From positions 1 to 41,891 of the forward strand of contig SUVR01000016.1 of NCBI GenBank assembly GCA_015061915.1: a DNA stretch of 41,891 nucleotides, read 5' to 3'. This document shows, piece by piece, positions 1 through 27,281 of this stretch (positions are counted from its first letter, which is position 1; every line of letters begins with the position of its first letter). The stretch is from Lentisphaerota bacterium (lineage in GTDB: Bacteria; Verrucomicrobiota; Lentisphaeria; Victivallales; UBA1829). The position numbers were made by a program, and so were the translations under genes. The notes under the pieces are model-generated. The model saw only the letters and a program-made list of their open reading frames with translations. It was not told the DNA's origin and did no database searches.

Positions 1-10
1 CCCTGAAACA

Positions 11-124
11 TGATTTTTCGTGACTTTTTCAAGAAAAAATCACAGCCGATGCGTCAAAATTGGTTTGACGCTGAAAAAATCAACTTTTTAACAAGATGAG
101 CCAAAACGTTTTGAAATTGGCTCA
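11..124. repeat. Three consecutive palindromes upstream of mraZ
   Basis: Three inverted repeats lie in a row in this AT-rich leader. TGATTTTT (11-18) pairs with AAAAATCA (35-42). GCGTCAAA (51-58) pairs with TTTGACGC (64-71) around a 5-base centre. TGAGCCAA (97-104) pairs with TTGGCTCA (117-124). No coding region is seen in 1-214. They could be operators, or terminators of a gene left of the window; none has a clean GC stem plus long T-run, so a regulatory or structural role is as likely. Confidence 0.5.
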
Positions 125-143
125 AAATATTTTCAAAAAGGGC

Positions 144-171
144 TTGATTTTTTTGAAAAGTGGGGTATAAT
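144..171 (+). promoter_or_regulatory. Sigma70-type promoter of the mraZ operon
   Basis: TTGATT (144-149), a 16-base spacer and a perfect TATAAT (166-171). Transcription would start near 178, leaving a leader of about 37 bases. The -10 element sits inside the first TGG box of the MraZ-box array, which is what autoregulation by MraZ would need. Confidence 0.7.
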
Positions 172-220
172 GGTCATAGATGGAATAAAATGGAATAAAA
201 TGGAATAATTTGGAATGATT
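161..220 (+). promoter_or_regulatory. Array of six 10-bp-phased TGG boxes (MraZ operator)
   Basis: TGG occurs at 161, 171, 181, 191, 201 and 211, exactly one per 10 bp; the last four units all begin TGGAAT. MraZ proteins are known to bind short TGG/GTG-type direct repeats of about 10-bp period in front of their own operon. The array covers the -10 element, the whole leader and the mraZ start codon (215), so binding should block both initiation and early elongation. The period and position are visible; the binding is inferred. Confidence 0.8.
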
Positions 221-709
221 GCTTTTTGCGGATACGACAGATGTTCGATCGACTCCAGCGGACGCCTCAAGCTCAGCCCCGCTGTCCTCGCCGATTTCGG
301 CGGGACCGGTGCGGGATTGGTCGCACGGTGTCTGCCGGAAGGATGCATTGCCGTTTATCCCGAAGCATATTTTCAGAAAATGCGTCAGGCGGGAAGCGAA
401 AATTCTGCAGTTCTGGCGGCATCCAGTGCATTATACCGCAGAAATTTGCGTATGCTGAACGCTATGAGTTCGCCCGTGACCATTTCGCCCCAGGGGCGGA
501 TCACTCTGCCTGCTGATTTCCGGAAACTTGCCGGAATCGATCAGACGCCGGACGTGGTGGTCGTCGGGGTGGAAGTCGGGGTGGAGATCTGGTCGTTGCA
601 GCGTTGGAACGAAGAGCAGACCCGGATTGATGATCACATGGCGCTGCGGGATGAGTTGGAAATGAAAAGAGATCTTGAAGATCTGAATAAAAATGATGAA
701 AAAAAGTGA
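215..709 (+). CDS. mraZ: MraZ-like transcriptional regulator
   Basis: A 164-residue protein with the two SpoVT/AbrB-like halves of MraZ. The first begins at GYDRCSIDSSGRLKLS (residues 6-21). The second is ITISPQGRITLPADFRKL-like in the middle of the protein (around residues 88-106), followed by the characteristic VEIWSLQRWNEE. MraZ forms a ring that binds repeats in front of division/cell-wall genes and represses its own operon. The start at 215 matches the usual MraZ N-terminus, although it lies in the last TGG box and has no Shine-Dalgarno, so translation may be nearly leader-independent. The C-terminal 30 residues are a charged tail. The usual next gene, rsmH (mraW), is absent; the operon goes straight to three membrane proteins of division type. 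Confidence 0.85.
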   Translation: MIAFCGYDRCSIDSSGRLKLSPAVLADFGGTGAGLVARCLPEGCIAVYPEAYFQKMRQAGSENSAVLAASSALYRRNLRMLNAMSSPVTISPQGRITLPADFRKLAGIDQTPDVVVVGVEVGVEIWSLQRWNEEQTRIDDHMALRDELEMKRDLEDLNKNDEKK

Positions 710-716
710 GGAACGG

Positions 717-980
717 ATGAAAAATACAATTTGGAAAAAGATCGGGGGCGGCGTGATCCTGGGTGGCGCCTTGCTGTTGATCGGGGCAACAAGCCTGAAA
801 AATAGATCGTTGATTGAGAAGAAGCAGCTGGAACAGGATCGGTGCCGGGAAGCTGCGGTGCAGTTGGAAGGAATCGCTCCCGGTTCAAATTGGAAAGAAA
901 TGGCGCTCCGGAATCCGGAATTTTGTATCCGGGCGGGGCATACGGTATTACGCGGAACCAACGGAAAGGTGACGGAATGA
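717..980 (+). CDS. Small bitopic membrane protein in FtsL/DivIC position
   Basis: An 87-residue protein. The start at 717 is preferred over ATG 693 because GAGGA (708-712) precedes it at suitable spacing and the mraZ stop is at 707-709. Layout: short basic N-terminus (MKNTIWKK), one membrane helix (about residues 9-27), then a charged stretch rich in E, K, Q and R that could form a coiled coil (about 30-50), and a polar C-terminus. This is the size and topology of FtsL/DivIC, and it sits where ftsL sits in division clusters, directly before a class B PBP gene. Sequence similarity to FtsL cannot be claimed by eye. It overlaps a second ATG by ATGA at 977-980. Confidence 0.6.
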   Translation: MKNTIWKKIGGGVILGGALLLIGATSLKNRSLIEKKQLEQDRCREAAVQLEGIAPGSNWKEMALRNPEFCIRAGHTVLRGTNGKVTE

Positions 981-990
981 AAGGCTGGGT

Positions 991-1698
991 ATGGAATTTC
1001 GTTTCAGGTCTGCTGTTCTTCTGACCTTTTTTGTCCTGTGGGCAGTCATTGCGGCTTTTACTCTTTACCGCAGAACAGTAGCAGAAGGAGAGCGTCTCTC
1101 GGAACGCAGCGAGTCTTTCGCCCGGAAGGAGGGCGTTCTTCCCGCAGCCAGAGGAAGGATCCTGGATGCAAACGGTGTGCCGCTTGCGTGGACCGGACTT
1201 CATTTTTCCCTTTATCTTTACAACTCTCCGAATGGTATCAGCGGTAATTTGAAAGATTTTCTTGCAACCCGTTTCAAGATTACTGAGATCCCGGAATTTC
1301 TGCCGGGTCAGGAAGAAATCTTACTTTTGGATGAGCTGCCCGTTCTCTCGGAAGCGGAACTGACATCCCTTTTTTCCATACCGGAACAATACCCTTTGCT
1401 TCACATCCGCACAACTCACCGCCGGATCAATGTCGATTATCCGCAGCTTGCTGTTTTGCTCGGTGAATGTGCTGCGGATGAGGATGGGGTCCCCCATGGC
1501 GTCAGCGGTTGGGAACTGGAGTTCGATCAAGCTCTCTCCGGTACACCCGGTACTTTTACTGTGATGCGTGACCGGAACGGAAAGTGGATGCCGGGAACTT
1601 TGAAGATGATCACGATGCCGGTTCCCGGAAAAGATGTGCGGTTGAAGGTGACTCTGGAGGAACTGATCGGGAAAGAAGGTGAAGCATGGAAAAAATAA
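991..1698 (+). CDS. Class B PBP pedestal domain without transpeptidase
   Basis: A 235-residue protein. Residues 8-26 are a membrane anchor. RGRILDANGVPLA (54-66) is the hallmark start of the PBP dimerisation (pedestal) domain. GVSGWELEFDQALSG (170-184) and VPGKDVRLKV (211-220) are the motifs that end it. In PBP2/FtsI the transpeptidase domain (SxxK, SxN, KTG) starts just there; this protein instead stops after 15 more residues, and its end overlaps the start of the SEDS gene (1686). There is no frameshifted continuation: the next frame holds ftsW. In SEDS-PBP pairs the pedestal is known to contact and activate the polymerase, so a regulator-only role is a reasonable inference. A clear ribosome site for 991 is lacking; a 15-codon frame from ATG 977 runs across the start and may couple translation. 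Confidence 0.75.
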   Translation: MEFRFRSAVLLTFFVLWAVIAAFTLYRRTVAEGERLSERSESFARKEGVLPAARGRILDANGVPLAWTGLHFSLYLYNSPNGISGNLKDFLATRFKITEIPEFLPGQEEILLLDELPVLSEAELTSLFSIPEQYPLLHIRTTHRRINVDYPQLAVLLGECAADEDGVPHGVSGWELEFDQALSGTPGTFTVMRDRNGKWMPGTLKMITMPVPGKDVRLKVTLEELIGKEGEAWKK

Positions 1699-2831
1699 AA
1701 CGGCTTCTTTCCATGATCCAGCATCCTCCGCTGGCGCCTCTGGCGGCAATTACGCTGTTTGCCCTGTGGGGATGTCTTTTGATTTATACCGCCAAAGCCT
1801 TCGGAAACAATCCCGCATATTTTGCCGGAAGACAACTGATCTGGCTTGGCATCGGGATCGCTGTTTTCTGTATTACGGTCATGATCCCCTTTTATTATTA
1901 TGAAAAATGGGCATCATGGATCTACTGTTTTGCTGTTCTTGTTCTGGTCGGCGTTCTGATTTTCGGGAAAAAGATCAATGGCATGACCGGCTGGTTTGAA
2001 CTGGGGGATGATATTCTGTTTCAGCCATCGGAATTCGCAAAAGGTGCAATGATCCTCTTTTTAAGTTCTCTTGCCGGAAAAGATGAATGGAATGGCAGGC
2101 ACGGTCGCAGCTTCGTGAAAGTTCTGCTTCCTGCACTGATTTGCTGCGGACTCGTAATGCTGGAGCCGGATCTGGGGTCCGCACTGGTTATTTCCGGCGC
2201 TTTTCTGATCGTCTTTTTTATTGCCGGTGGTGATTTGAAGTATATTTTACTTTGCATCGCCGGTGTCGGTGCAGCTGCAATCACGTTCCTTTTTATGCGT
2301 CCTTACGCGATGAAACGGATCACAGATTTTTTCAGCAGCGATGGCGAAATGTGGCATCTGAAACAGTTTCTCTACACGCTGGCACGGGGCGGGTGGACCG
2401 GCAGCAGCGAAGGCGGCGCTCTCTGGGCAAATTCTTATCTGCCGCTGCCTCATACCGATTCCCTTTACGCTACGATCGTGGAGGCAGCCGGATTCGTGGG
2501 CGGATTGATCGTACTTGGATTGTTTGTTCTGCTCGGAATTTTGTTCAGTTGTATGGCACAACGGGACAATATCAGCCGGTCAGCCGCAATCTATGTCAGC
2601 ACGATCGGGATGCTTTATCTGATGCAGGCACTGCTCCATATCAGCGTCAATCTCGTGATGGTGCCGACAACCGGAATCACCTTGCCGCTCCTCAGCTACG
2701 GCGGCAGCTCCCTGATCTCAACAATGATCGCATTCGGTGTCGCTTTTTCTGCGATCCGCAGCCATAAACCAACGGTCACGCAGAGCGCCGCCGGGGACGC
2801 AGCGCCGGAGCCTGGCTCCGGCAGCCGCTGA
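1686..2831 (+). CDS. ftsW: FtsW/RodA (SEDS) peptidoglycan glycosyltransferase
   Basis: A 381-residue polytopic inner-membrane protein of normal SEDS length. It polymerises lipid II into glycan strands. Visible family motifs are QPSEFAK (113-119), EPDLGSALV (160-168), LPLPHTDSLYATIVEAAG (252-269; D258 aligns with the essential Asp of RodA), VPTTGITLP and LSYGGSS near the end. TTGITLP-LLSYGGSS is closer to FtsW than to RodA, but the split is not certain by eye. It overlaps the headless PBP gene by 13 bases, so the two are surely co-translated. The last residues (SAAGDAAPEPGSGSR) are encoded by the left arm of a long inverted repeat and look like repeat-derived read-through. Confidence 0.9.
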   Translation: MEKIKRLLSMIQHPPLAPLAAITLFALWGCLLIYTAKAFGNNPAYFAGRQLIWLGIGIAVFCITVMIPFYYYEKWASWIYCFAVLVLVGVLIFGKKINGMTGWFELGDDILFQPSEFAKGAMILFLSSLAGKDEWNGRHGRSFVKVLLPALICCGLVMLEPDLGSALVISGAFLIVFFIAGGDLKYILLCIAGVGAAAITFLFMRPYAMKRITDFFSSDGEMWHLKQFLYTLARGGWTGSSEGGALWANSYLPLPHTDSLYATIVEAAGFVGGLIVLGLFVLLGILFSCMAQRDNISRSAAIYVSTIGMLYLMQALLHISVNLVMVPTTGITLPLLSYGGSSLISTMIAFGVAFSAIRSHKPTVTQSAAGDAAPEPGSGSR

Positions 2832-2857
2832 AAAAAGCCCGATTCCGGGCTTTTTTC
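2830..2857 (+). terminator. Rho-independent terminator of the ftsW operon
   Basis: A 12-bp stem, GAAAAAAGCCCG / CGGGCTTTTTTC, around ATTC. It overlaps the ftsW stop codon region. The T-run forms part of the stem. Confidence 0.85.
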
Positions 2858-2867
2858 AACGGCTTAT

Positions 2868-2906
2868 AAAAAATGCAGACCGCTTTTTTGCGGTCTGCAT
2901 TTTTTA
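2868..2906. terminator. Second terminator, likely bidirectional (ftsW and miaB)
   Basis: AAAAAATGCAGACCGC pairs with GCGGTCTGCATTTTT around six T. A-run and T-run flank the stem, so it should stop transcription from both sides, serving ftsW from the left and the convergent miaB (stop at 2946) from the right. Confidence 0.85.
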
Positions 2907-2945
2907 TTGCTGCGTCCCCGGCGACACTCTGCGTGGTGTGTGAGT

Positions 2946-4289
2946 TTACTCAACGACTTCGCCGTAGAGGGTCATAGGGGTTGCCCGGACGATTTTTACT
3001 TTAACCAGATCGCCTGCTTTGATTTCCTGTTTCGGTTCAAAGACTGCCAGTTTGAATGTATCAGTTCTTCCGGACCAGCGTTTGGGATTCCGTTTACTGG
3101 GACCGTCCACGAGCAGGACATATTCTTTTCCAACGAGGCTGGCATTTTTACTGCACTGCCGTTCTTCCAGATCTTTCAGCAGGATCTGATTCCGTTCTTC
3201 CTTGACGTCCTGCGGCACATCGTCATCCATCCGGGCGGAGACGGTCCCCTGTCGCGGGGAGTATTTGAAGATGAACGCATTATCGAAACCGACATCGTTC
3301 ATGACCTGTCGTGTCATGTTGAATTCTTCATCGGTTTCGGTGGGAAAACCCACGATCACGTCGGTGGAGAATGTGATTTCCGGCACCAGAGCCCGCAGGC
3401 TGTTGACAATGTGCATATATTTTGCCACATCGTACGGACGGTTCATCTTTTTGAGGACCCGGTCTGAACCGGATTGCAGGGGCAGGTGGATGCTTTTGCA
3501 GATCTTCGGTTCGGCGGCGATGGTCTCGATGAGCTTTTTATTGAAGTATGCGGGATGGGGTGAGGTGAAACGGATCCGTTCCAGACCGTCGATCTTTGCG
3601 ATTTCTTTCAGCAGGTCGGCGAAGGGGGAGAGATCGTCCGGCAGATTGGGTGCATGGCGACCCAGACCGAATGCCGCCACATTCTGACCGAGAAGCATAA
3701 TCTCTTTCACGCCGTGCCGTACCAGTTCCCGTGCTTCCTCCACAATGCTTTCCGGGTTCCGGCTCCGTTCGTGTCCGCGCACATATGGAACGATACAGTA
3801 ACTGCAGTAGCGGTCACAACCGCGCATGATGGAGATGAAGGCATTGTGCTTGATCGTATCGGTCCGGTGCATATCGATTCCGGGGGTGTCGGCGCCGCAG
3901 CGTTCCCGCAGGTCAAGCTTGCTGCCGGTTCCGTTCAGGATCTGTTCCACGGCATCGGGGATGCTGTGGATCTGATCGGTCCCGATCACAAAATCCAGAT
4001 GGGGGATCGTCTTGAGCAGTTCTTCGCCCCGGCTCTGCGCCATACAGCCCATCAAGCCGAAGATCATGTGCTTCCGTTCGGCTTTGATCCGTTTCATGAT
4101 CCCCAGCTTCCCGATGGCTTTCCGTTCTGCCTGATCCCGCACGCTGCAGGTGTTCAGGATCACGATATCGGCTTCATTTTCATCTTCGGTGGGCAGGTAA
4201 CCGTGTGCAATGAGCAGGGCGGATGCGGAATCCGAATCCCGCTCGTTCATCTGACACCCGTATGTCTTGATATGAAATTTCAGTGCCAT
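2946..4289 (-). CDS. miaB: tRNA-2-methylthio-N6-dimethylallyladenosine synthase
   Basis: A 447-residue radical-SAM methylthiotransferase that adds the 2-methylthio group to i6A37 of tRNAs reading UNN codons. The N-terminal UPF0004 domain carries the cluster cysteines in KTYGCQMN (C12), NTCSVRDQAE (C48) and GLMGCMAQ. The radical-SAM motif is RGCDRYCSYCIVPYVRG. A TRAM domain closes the C-terminus. The length is that of MiaB rather than MtaB or RimO, and CQMNERDSD is MiaB-typical. The ATG overlaps the proB stop (TGATG), so it is translationally coupled to proB. Confidence 0.95.
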   Translation of the reverse strand: MALKFHIKTYGCQMNERDSDSASALLIAHGYLPTEDENEADIVILNTCSVRDQAERKAIGKLGIMKRIKAERKHMIFGLMGCMAQSRGEELLKTIPHLDFVIGTDQIHSIPDAVEQILNGTGSKLDLRERCGADTPGIDMHRTDTIKHNAFISIMRGCDRYCSYCIVPYVRGHERSRNPESIVEEARELVRHGVKEIMLLGQNVAAFGLGRHAPNLPDDLSPFADLLKEIAKIDGLERIRFTSPHPAYFNKKLIETIAAEPKICKSIHLPLQSGSDRVLKKMNRPYDVAKYMHIVNSLRALVPEITFSTDVIVGFPTETDEEFNMTRQVMNDVGFDNAFIFKYSPRQGTVSARMDDDVPQDVKEERNQILLKDLEERQCSKNASLVGKEYVLLVDGPSKRNPKRWSGRTDTFKLAVFEPKQEIKAGDLVKVKIVRATPMTLYGEVVE

Positions 4290-25614: not shown

Positions 25615-26208
25615 ATGTTGTGTCAGATTTGTAATAAAAATACCGCCACGATCCACATTCAGGAAGTGGTGAACGGAAAAAAACAATCGCTTCATCTTTG
25701 CCTGACCTGCGCCGGTAAGCGGTCTTTCGACCATGCTGCACTGGATGGCATGGATCTGGCGGAACTGATGAATTCTTTGGAACAGAGCATCTCCGAAATG
25801 GGCTTGATCCCGTTTAAGGAAATCGGAAAAAGTATGCCGGATGATGCCGCAACTCTGCCGGATCTGCAATGCTCTTCCTGCAGTTGGACTTCGGCACAAT
25901 TCGCCAAAACCGGAAAATTGGGCTGTGAAAATTGTTATGAAGTTTTTGCGGACTTCCTTCTGCCCAAGCTCCTGGAGTATCACCGTTCTGCTGTTCACAC
26001 CGGTAAACTGCCGGAGTTTGATCCTGCCGGCAGCCGGTTTTCCATCCCGAAAATTTTGTCCGGAAAAACGGTCGCAGATGAGGAGGAGACAGAACTTGCT
26101 GCTCTGGAACGGGATTTGAAGCAATCGATCCTCCGGGAGGAATACGAACTGGCTGCACAGATCCGTGACCGGATCAATGTGCTTCGTGCCGGAAAGGATA
26201 ACTGCTGA
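25615..26208 (+). CDS. mcsA: McsA-like zinc-finger protein with UVR motif
   Basis: 197 residues. Two pairs of zinc CxxC: C3/C6 with C29/C32 (LCQIC, CLTCAG), then CSSC with CENC in the middle. A linker leads to a C-terminal UvrB/UvrC motif (LERDLKQSILREEYELAAQIRDRI). This is the McsA architecture: an activator/adaptor of the McsB protein-arginine kinase in Bacillus. AGGAG at 25600-25604 precedes the ATG. The next gene overlaps it by one base and is McsB-like, which supports the call. Confidence 0.88.
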   Translation: MLCQICNKNTATIHIQEVVNGKKQSLHLCLTCAGKRSFDHAALDGMDLAELMNSLEQSISEMGLIPFKEIGKSMPDDAATLPDLQCSSCSWTSAQFAKTGKLGCENCYEVFADFLLPKLLEYHRSAVHTGKLPEFDPAGSRFSIPKILSGKTVADEEETELAALERDLKQSILREEYELAAQIRDRINVLRAGKDNC

Positions 26209-27281
26209 TGAAGCCCTTGTCTTTTCCCTGGTCTTCTGCGGATGCGCCCCGGGGCAATGGGGATCCGGTCGTTCTGGCATCGGTTCTCCGGTTGTACCGG
26301 AATCTGCATGATGCACCGTTTCCGGAGCGTGCCGGAAAAGCGGAACAGCTTGCCGTTTCTGAAACCGTGAGTTTGACGCTGGAGCAACTGCTGCCCGGAT
26401 TTTGTGAGATCCCGGAATTTGCGGTCCCCGTTCCGAAGAACGAGTGTGCCTGTATGGTGGAGCAGCGTCTTGTTACGCCCGATTTCGCAAAAATGCGTTT
26501 TTGCGGTCAGAAGGTACGGTTTTCATCTGCCGGAAATGAATCAATCCAGATCAATGGCGGAGACCACCTTGTGTTGAGTGCCTGCGGTGCCGGATTGACT
26601 TTGCCTGTGCTGTGGGAGCGGCTGAACACGATGGATGATCTGCTGTCAAAAAAATTACATTTTGCTTTTCATCCCAAATACGGCTATCTTTCGCCGGATC
26701 CGGAAAATGCCGGAACGGGTCTGGAGATCTCTCTGATCCTTCATCTGCCCGGACTTGCTCTGATGGATGAAATCAAGCCGATGCTGACTGCATTCCTCCG
26801 GCTTGGTTTGAAATGTTACGGGATTTCAGATGCGGAGAACAAGTTTCCCGGAAACATTTATGTCATTTCCAACCGATCCAAAATGGGGGAAACGGAAGCG
26901 CAGCTTCTTGCTCGTCTGGAAAAAACGGTGCTGCATATCGTGGACGAGGAACTGGATGCCCGGGAACGGTTGTTCCGGAAAACACCAATGAAAGCGGAAG
27001 ATTTCTGTTACCGGTCCCTTGCTGTACTGACTCATGCCCGGATGATCTCCACGGTGGAGGCTCTCAATGCGCTGTCCGGCTTGAAACTGGCGCAGGACCG
27101 GTCCATCGCGCAGGAGCTTATCCCTGCTGATCTGCCCCGTTGGGACGATTTGCTGCTGCAGGTTATGCCGGGTCATGTTGCCGCAAAATTCCCGGATCCG
27201 GAAGTGGTGACCAAGGAACAGCGTGCGGTCTGCCGGGCGGAGATCCTGCGGCGCTTCTTCGGAGGAAAGAGCGCTTTATGA
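26208..27281 (+). CDS. Degenerate McsB (protein-arginine kinase) homologue
   Basis: 357 residues in the position and of the length of McsB, with the frame of the phosphagen-kinase fold intact: VLRLYRNLHDAPFP (26-39), GDHLVLSA (118-125), YGYLSPDPENAGTGLE (158-173), LHLPGLALMD and GNIYVISNRSKMGETE. The chemistry looks lost. The first Arg of the SSRIR motif is V26. The catalytic Glu of NEEDH is a glycine (NGGDH, 116-120) and its following Arg is Val. The active-site Cys of TACP is D164, and the nucleotide-binding Arg after GTGL is E173. It is therefore probably a pseudokinase acting with McsA, as an adaptor or phosphoarginine binder. It overlaps the kinase gene by ATGA. Confidence 0.8.
   Translation: MKPLSFPWSSADAPRGNGDPVVLASVLRLYRNLHDAPFPERAGKAEQLAVSETVSLTLEQLLPGFCEIPEFAVPVPKNECACMVEQRLVTPDFAKMRFCGQKVRFSSAGNESIQINGGDHLVLSACGAGLTLPVLWERLNTMDDLLSKKLHFAFHPKYGYLSPDPENAGTGLEISLILHLPGLALMDEIKPMLTAFLRLGLKCYGISDAENKFPGNIYVISNRSKMGETEAQLLARLEKTVLHIVDEELDARERLFRKTPMKAEDFCYRSLAVLTHARMISTVEALNALSGLKLAQDRSIAQELIPADLPRWDDLLLQVMPGHVAAKFPDPEVVTKEQRAVCRAEILRRFFGGKSAL

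Follow-up and report, generated by a model that had tools for sequence, protein, structure and literature searches.

A conserved class B PBP homologue without a transpeptidase domain, encoded beside a third SEDS protein in Lentisphaeria

The window, the whole stretch of 41,891 nucleotides that was analysed, is one entire contig (G000:C19) of a Lentisphaerota genome of 2.49 Mb that is 97% complete. It carries four consecutive genes, which encode an MraZ, a small membrane protein, a class B PBP homologue devoid of a transpeptidase domain (referred to here as the headless PBP) and a SEDS protein (Table 1). The promoter is the sole promoter-like site in positions 1-3200, where shuffled sequences average 2.4, and is therefore a weak call when taken alone. 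The terminator was read by eye from the sequence and is absent from the pattern-scan list. The reading frames of the headless PBP and the SEDS protein overlap by 13 bp. This overlap, the pedestal domain without a transpeptidase and the mraZ gene ahead of it had all been described in the first-pass annotation, and were confirmed by the open reading frames and Pfam. Further along the window, positions 26208-27281 of the forward strand encode an ATP:guanido phosphotransferase catalytic domain (PF00217, E 3.7e-34), possibly of a McsB-type protein arginine kinase.

Table 1. Features of the module locus (positions in the window)
Feature	Position	Strand	Basis and remarks
Sigma-70-like promoter, TTGATT-16-TATAAT	144..171	+	Pattern scan; overlaps the first MraZ-type box
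Six TGG boxes with 10-bp spacing, putative operator of the module MraZ	161..220	+	Repeat scan
MraZ of the module, the genome's second MraZ paralogue	215..709	+	PF02381, E 3.4e-14
Small bitopic membrane protein, 95 aa, single TM	693..980	+	Conserved family; FtsL-like by position only
Headless class B PBP, 235 aa: TM helix and complete pedestal, transpeptidase absent	991..1698	+	Pfam, AlphaFold2, Foldseek
Third SEDS protein	1686..2831	+	PF01098, E 1.5e-67, residues 20-357
Apparent intrinsic terminator A6-GCCCG-ATTC-CGGGC-T6 at the end of the four-gene operon	2831..2856	+	Read from sequence

The only Pfam domain detected in the headless PBP is PBP_dimer (PF03717), which covers residues 50-198 (profile positions 2-174 of 180, E 2e-7, 32 bits at a cut-off of 24.4). 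The transpeptidase family PF00905 has no Pfam match in the 235 residues, the SxxK and KTG motifs are also absent, and the protein ends at the point where the transpeptidase would start. A transpeptidase concealed downstream in another frame is ruled out, as the SEDS gene begins within the end of the headless PBP gene. The AlphaFold2 model, the input to which included 26 orthologues, has a mean pLDDT of 92.1 and consists of a single N-terminal helix (residues 2-31) followed by the pedestal fold. A Foldseek search of the PDB with this model matched class B PBPs such as the PBP2 chain of RodA-PBP2 (6pl5_B, E 3e-12) and the FtsI chain of FtsWIQBL (8bh1_B, E 1.2e-11), and in a profile search of PDB sequences FtsI and PBP2 align along almost the entire protein. 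The model and both sets of matches indicate that the domain is a complete pedestal and not a fragment. Of the defining parts of a class B PBP, the N-terminal transmembrane anchor and the PBP_dimer pedestal are present, and the transpeptidase with its SxxK, SxN and KTG motifs is absent. Judged by its sequence, the headless PBP is thus a descendant of the class B PBPs and not a functional member of them. Of 71 aligned headless PBPs, 56 have Met where FtsI has Arg210, which has been reported to act in activation (PMC8078798); near FtsI 57-62 and PBP2 61 the alignment is too unreliable to interpret.

The headless form is widespread in the class. Matches were found in 39 of 61 genomes searched, the strong ones being open reading frames of about 210-250 aa, usually with an adjoining SEDS gene. 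When the profile search was extended to 198 genomes of the class, strong matches were nearly all to short open reading frames, mostly of 190-300 aa, some being longer through upstream extension; most Lentisphaeria genomes searched contain a headless PBP. A 666-aa open frame in G165, considered as a fused headless PBP-SEDS protein, was rejected, being two overlapping frames with an upstream extension. The general profile search reached as far as the phylum Verrucomicrobiota (388 genomes), and among the matches listed none outside the class is a headless copy; those listed are weak, to open reading frames of 455-944 aa. In a scan of GTDB genomes with one class-specific peptide pattern, which holders in other phyla could escape, the named holders are all Lentisphaeria. 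They include the isolate Victivallis vadensis DSM 14823, the headless protein of which carries PBP_dimer only. The first-pass annotation had reasoned that a full-length transpeptidase at this locus in related strains would expose the window's copy as a recent truncation or an assembly error. The relatives, compared for gene order and protein length, are headless too, and the SEDS gene usually adjoins.

The presence of the headless PBP is closely tied to that of an additional SEDS protein. According to profile searches within the order, which supplied both the headless PBP calls and the SEDS counts, and among genomes of at least 90% completeness, three or more SEDS proteins are encoded by 45 of 47 that have a headless PBP and by 1 of 20 that lack one (Fisher p 1.7e-13, a value which treats genomes as independent and makes no correction for phylogeny). 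In the sole genome of this set with three SEDS matches and no headless PBP, G171, the third match is a weak fragment only. Several genera and families have lost the module, namely g6, f8 and parts of both g13 and g30, as have single genomes, and the headless PBP and the third SEDS protein were lost together. The headless PBPs of G040, G065 and G118 have no adjoining SEDS gene, and a SEDS protein of the module clade is encoded elsewhere in each of these genomes, which shows that both partners persist where their genes are no longer linked. The principal exceptions are G062, G063 and G064, in which a headless PBP is present and no module SEDS was detected; the last of these is a 3-contig assembly with a single SEDS protein, of the RodA type. 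The coupling of headless PBP to SEDS polymerase put forward in the first-pass annotation is borne out at the gene level by class-wide adjacency and co-occurrence, but a strict one-to-one relation is not universal. At three loci (L085 and L086 of family f11, and L095 of f10) the headless PBP is accompanied by the small protein and usually by MraZ, and no module SEDS was detected.

In trees of the SEDS proteins of the class, three groups are each well supported: RodA-like, FtsW-like and the module SEDS. All SEDS proteins adjoining a headless PBP form one clade apart from FtsW and RodA (SH-aLRT 100), which was recovered with other samples, and the module protein is accordingly assigned neither to FtsW nor to RodA. 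The trees were built by a quick method, with SH-aLRT as the only measure of support and with midpoint rooting; they show the separation of the groups and not the order of their origin. A highly divergent SEDS-like protein with an extremely long branch (L241, G176:C22:14684-15643) is encoded in a genome without the module.

The third SEDS protein contains Asp258 within HTD, QPSE at 113, EPDLG at 160 and SYGG at 337, and Asp258 aligns with D297 of E. coli FtsW and D262 of E. coli RodA, the catalytic Asp in ECL4. Aligned to these two proteins, 34 of 36 third-SEDS sequences have the Asp. Trp138 (35), Glu150 (36), Lys153 (34), Tyr379 (35) and Gly380 (36), in E. coli FtsW numbering, are retained in the numbers of the 36 sequences given in parentheses. 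For the module SEDS proteins of two family f22 loci (L091 and L122), a motif scan gave no match to the usual Asp motif of ECL4, and these may be the two sequences without the Asp. Two other positions differ consistently. Where FtsW and RodA have Arg or Gln, at the position of Arg243, most third SEDS proteins have Ala or Val, and at that of Ala135 the latter mostly have Met. In E. coli FtsW, Arg243 substitutions and A135T are dominant-negative (PMC8765783). The changes at both positions may, on the alignment, reflect an altered mechanism or substrate.

The MraZ of the module combines a PF02381 domain with a 10-bp-periodic putative operator upstream. Its six TGG boxes, at 161, 171, 181, 191, 201 and 211, are spaced at exactly 10 bp, the last four reading TGGAAT, and the array runs into the mraZ start codon. 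None of 300 shuffled sequences contained as many boxes in phase. Arrays of at least three TGG boxes occur at 35 of 44 mraZ loci of the module type and are rarely matched in shuffled sequences. In model bacteria MraZ boxes are TGGGN repeats with an equal 10-bp pitch. The dcw cluster of the same genome has an mraZ gene of its own (locus L036), which is preceded, upstream of 5534, by a different, TTAGGTGAA-type 10-bp repeat and by no TGG array. The repeats suggest that two MraZ paralogues with separate operators and divergent specificities may coexist in one cell. In family f4, to which V. vadensis belongs, the loci examined have no detectable mraZ close to the module; in V. vadensis (L112, 5248-7939) the module is preceded instead by two other genes, one histidine-kinase-like and one for a Ser/Thr protein kinase.

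The small protein encoded between mraZ and the headless PBP had been annotated in the first pass as an FtsL-like bitopic protein. It has a single transmembrane helix, but resembles FtsL in position only. The class-wide alignment places it in a separate conserved family with about 55 extracytoplasmic residues, the 95-aa protein matches no Pfam or NCBIfam entry and no FtsL model, and it is unlike the FtsL candidate encoded in the dcw cluster, which has 138 aa. Judged from its length alone, it lacks a long periplasmic coiled coil.

Elsewhere the genome retains a canonical mraZ-rsmH-FtsL-FtsI cluster. As the first-pass annotation had advised, a full FtsI and a second ftsW were sought elsewhere in the genome; both FtsI and PBP2 are encoded at full length, and an FtsW and a RodA are present apart from the module SEDS. 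The two PF00905 proteins are a 621-aa FtsI-type protein, which sits in the order mraZ-rsmH-(FtsL candidate)-ftsI, and a 599-aa PBP2-type protein that adjoins MreC; both retain SxxK, SxN and KTG. The SEDS proteins are RodA, an FtsW beside MurG, and the module SEDS. Neither class A PBPs (PF00912) nor YkuD (PF03734) have a match in this genome; among 198 genomes of the class the two families occur in 64 and 160, respectively. Any cross-linking of the module's product by these transpeptidase families must therefore come from FtsI or PBP2.

The simplest mechanism, which we consider somewhat probable, is that of a dedicated SEDS polymerase and its pedestal-only activator, with cross-linking outsourced and MraZ control private to the module. 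The four genes would form one operon for a dedicated glycan polymerase, in which the third SEDS protein would polymerise a lipid-linked precursor, presumably of peptidoglycan. The headless PBP would bind it through the transmembrane helix and the pedestal, as cognate allosteric subunit and recruiter, in parallel to the pedestal of PBP2 for RodA and that of FtsI for FtsW; SEDS activation has been mapped by genetics and structures to the contact between pedestal and ECL4 (PMC8078798). Because the transpeptidase of the module's PBP is gone, FtsI or PBP2 would have to cross-link the new strands in trans, or cross-linking would remain sparse. The module's own MraZ would set the dose through the private TGGAA-type operator.

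The RodA-PBP2 (MrdB-MrdA) elongation synthase likewise joins a SEDS protein to the pedestal of a single-TM class B PBP, and the fold of its PBP2 (6pl5) is matched by the headless PBP. PBP2, however, has a transpeptidase and the headless PBP none, the module SEDS belongs to a separate clade, and the genome encodes its own RodA and PBP2 as well. The module pedestal also matches FtsI, the partner of FtsW in the divisome synthase, and the arrangement of mraZ, a small bitopic gene and a class B PBP-type gene resembles the mraZ-rsmH-ftsL-ftsI end of the dcw cluster. It differs from the latter in having no rsmH and no transpeptidase, in the SEDS gene directly downstream, and in a small protein that is not recognisably FtsL; an intact dcw end is present elsewhere in the genome, and its operator differs from that of the module. 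B. subtilis PBP2b and C. difficile SpoVD and PBP3 show that catalysis of a class B PBP can be dispensable though the protein is required (PMC12713402). These proteins keep the transpeptidase domain, whereas in the headless PBP it is physically absent throughout the class. RagB of B. subtilis, a single-TM protein without a transpeptidase, stimulates a SEDS protein (RodA), but it is a non-PBP with a largely disordered ectodomain, for which no pedestal is mentioned, and acts beside the cognate class B PBPs of RodA (PMC12457691).

One alternative, that the headless PBP derives from an ordinary ftsI by recent truncation or frameshift, as a pseudogene, or through an error of assembly, is refuted by the class-wide conservation and retains virtually no probability: no point in its support was found, the length, sequence and gene order are conserved over many families and unrelated assemblies, and the genome has a separate, intact FtsI. 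A changed substrate is a serious rival because the cavity residues are altered in the third SEDS proteins. The module would then polymerise or ligate another lipid-linked glycan, of the envelope or exopolysaccharide type, having lost a transpeptidase that was not needed and kept the pedestal as a regulatory subunit. The class-wide want of a transpeptidase, the changed Arg243 and Ala135 positions beside a kept Asp, the dispensability of the module, which is lost in whole genera and families, and the neighbouring genes of some relatives, which are not peptidoglycan genes, are consistent with such a role. MraZ control and class B PBP ancestry nevertheless favour peptidoglycan, no glycan-specific operon partner recurs among the loci read, and the other cavity residues are canonical; we judge this alternative unlikely.

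The tight co-occurrence and usual adjacency of the two proteins, together with the Asp kept in 34 of the 36 SEDS sequences, argue against a regulatory or decoy role, in which the headless PBP would compete with FtsI or PBP2 for FtsW, RodA or divisome partners and the third SEDS protein would be secondary or inactive. Such a role would accord with the general class B PBP pedestal fold and with the three genomes in which a headless PBP occurs and no third SEDS protein was detected, and is quite improbable. It is most doubtful that the pair stands in for class A PBPs as a fill-in polymerase. The genome has no PF00912, and within the order this family is absent from 81 of 91 genomes with the module versus 29 of 46 without it (p 5e-4), but at 90% completeness the trend falls short of significance (p 0.16), and one genus confounds it. 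Moreover, several genomes, G052 and G166 among them, have both module and class A PBP, many others, including most of g30 and f8, have neither, and strict replacement is unsupported at high completeness.

A bolder form of the dedicated-polymerase mechanism can be entertained only tentatively. It would be a class-wide third SEDS synthase, transpeptidase-free by design, with a pedestal-only subunit, a dedicated SEDS protein with an altered active-site pocket and a private MraZ, which might produce uncross-linked strands or another glycan independently of the divisome and the elongasome.

The first-pass annotation had envisaged a minimal, undescribed glycan-synthesis module. The conserved SEDS-pedestal module without a transpeptidase stands and is probably undescribed; the small protein is FtsL-like by position only. 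No description of a natural, conserved class B PBP without a transpeptidase was found in the open-licence literature, and the claim to novelty extends as far as that literature and, for the general profile, the Verrucomicrobiota. Activation of SEDS proteins by the pedestal of class B PBPs has so far been inferred from mutants of transpeptidase-bearing proteins. Evolution appears to have split pedestal activation from the transpeptidase, the split form being present in the cultured V. vadensis and in many uncultured relatives, and the headless PBP-SEDS pair is thus a natural test of SEDS polymerase activation. If the proposed mechanism is true, the pair would be a minimal system for reconstitution, a SEDS polymerase would need no covalently tied cross-linking activity, and a penicillin-insensitive polymerase unit would be predicted.
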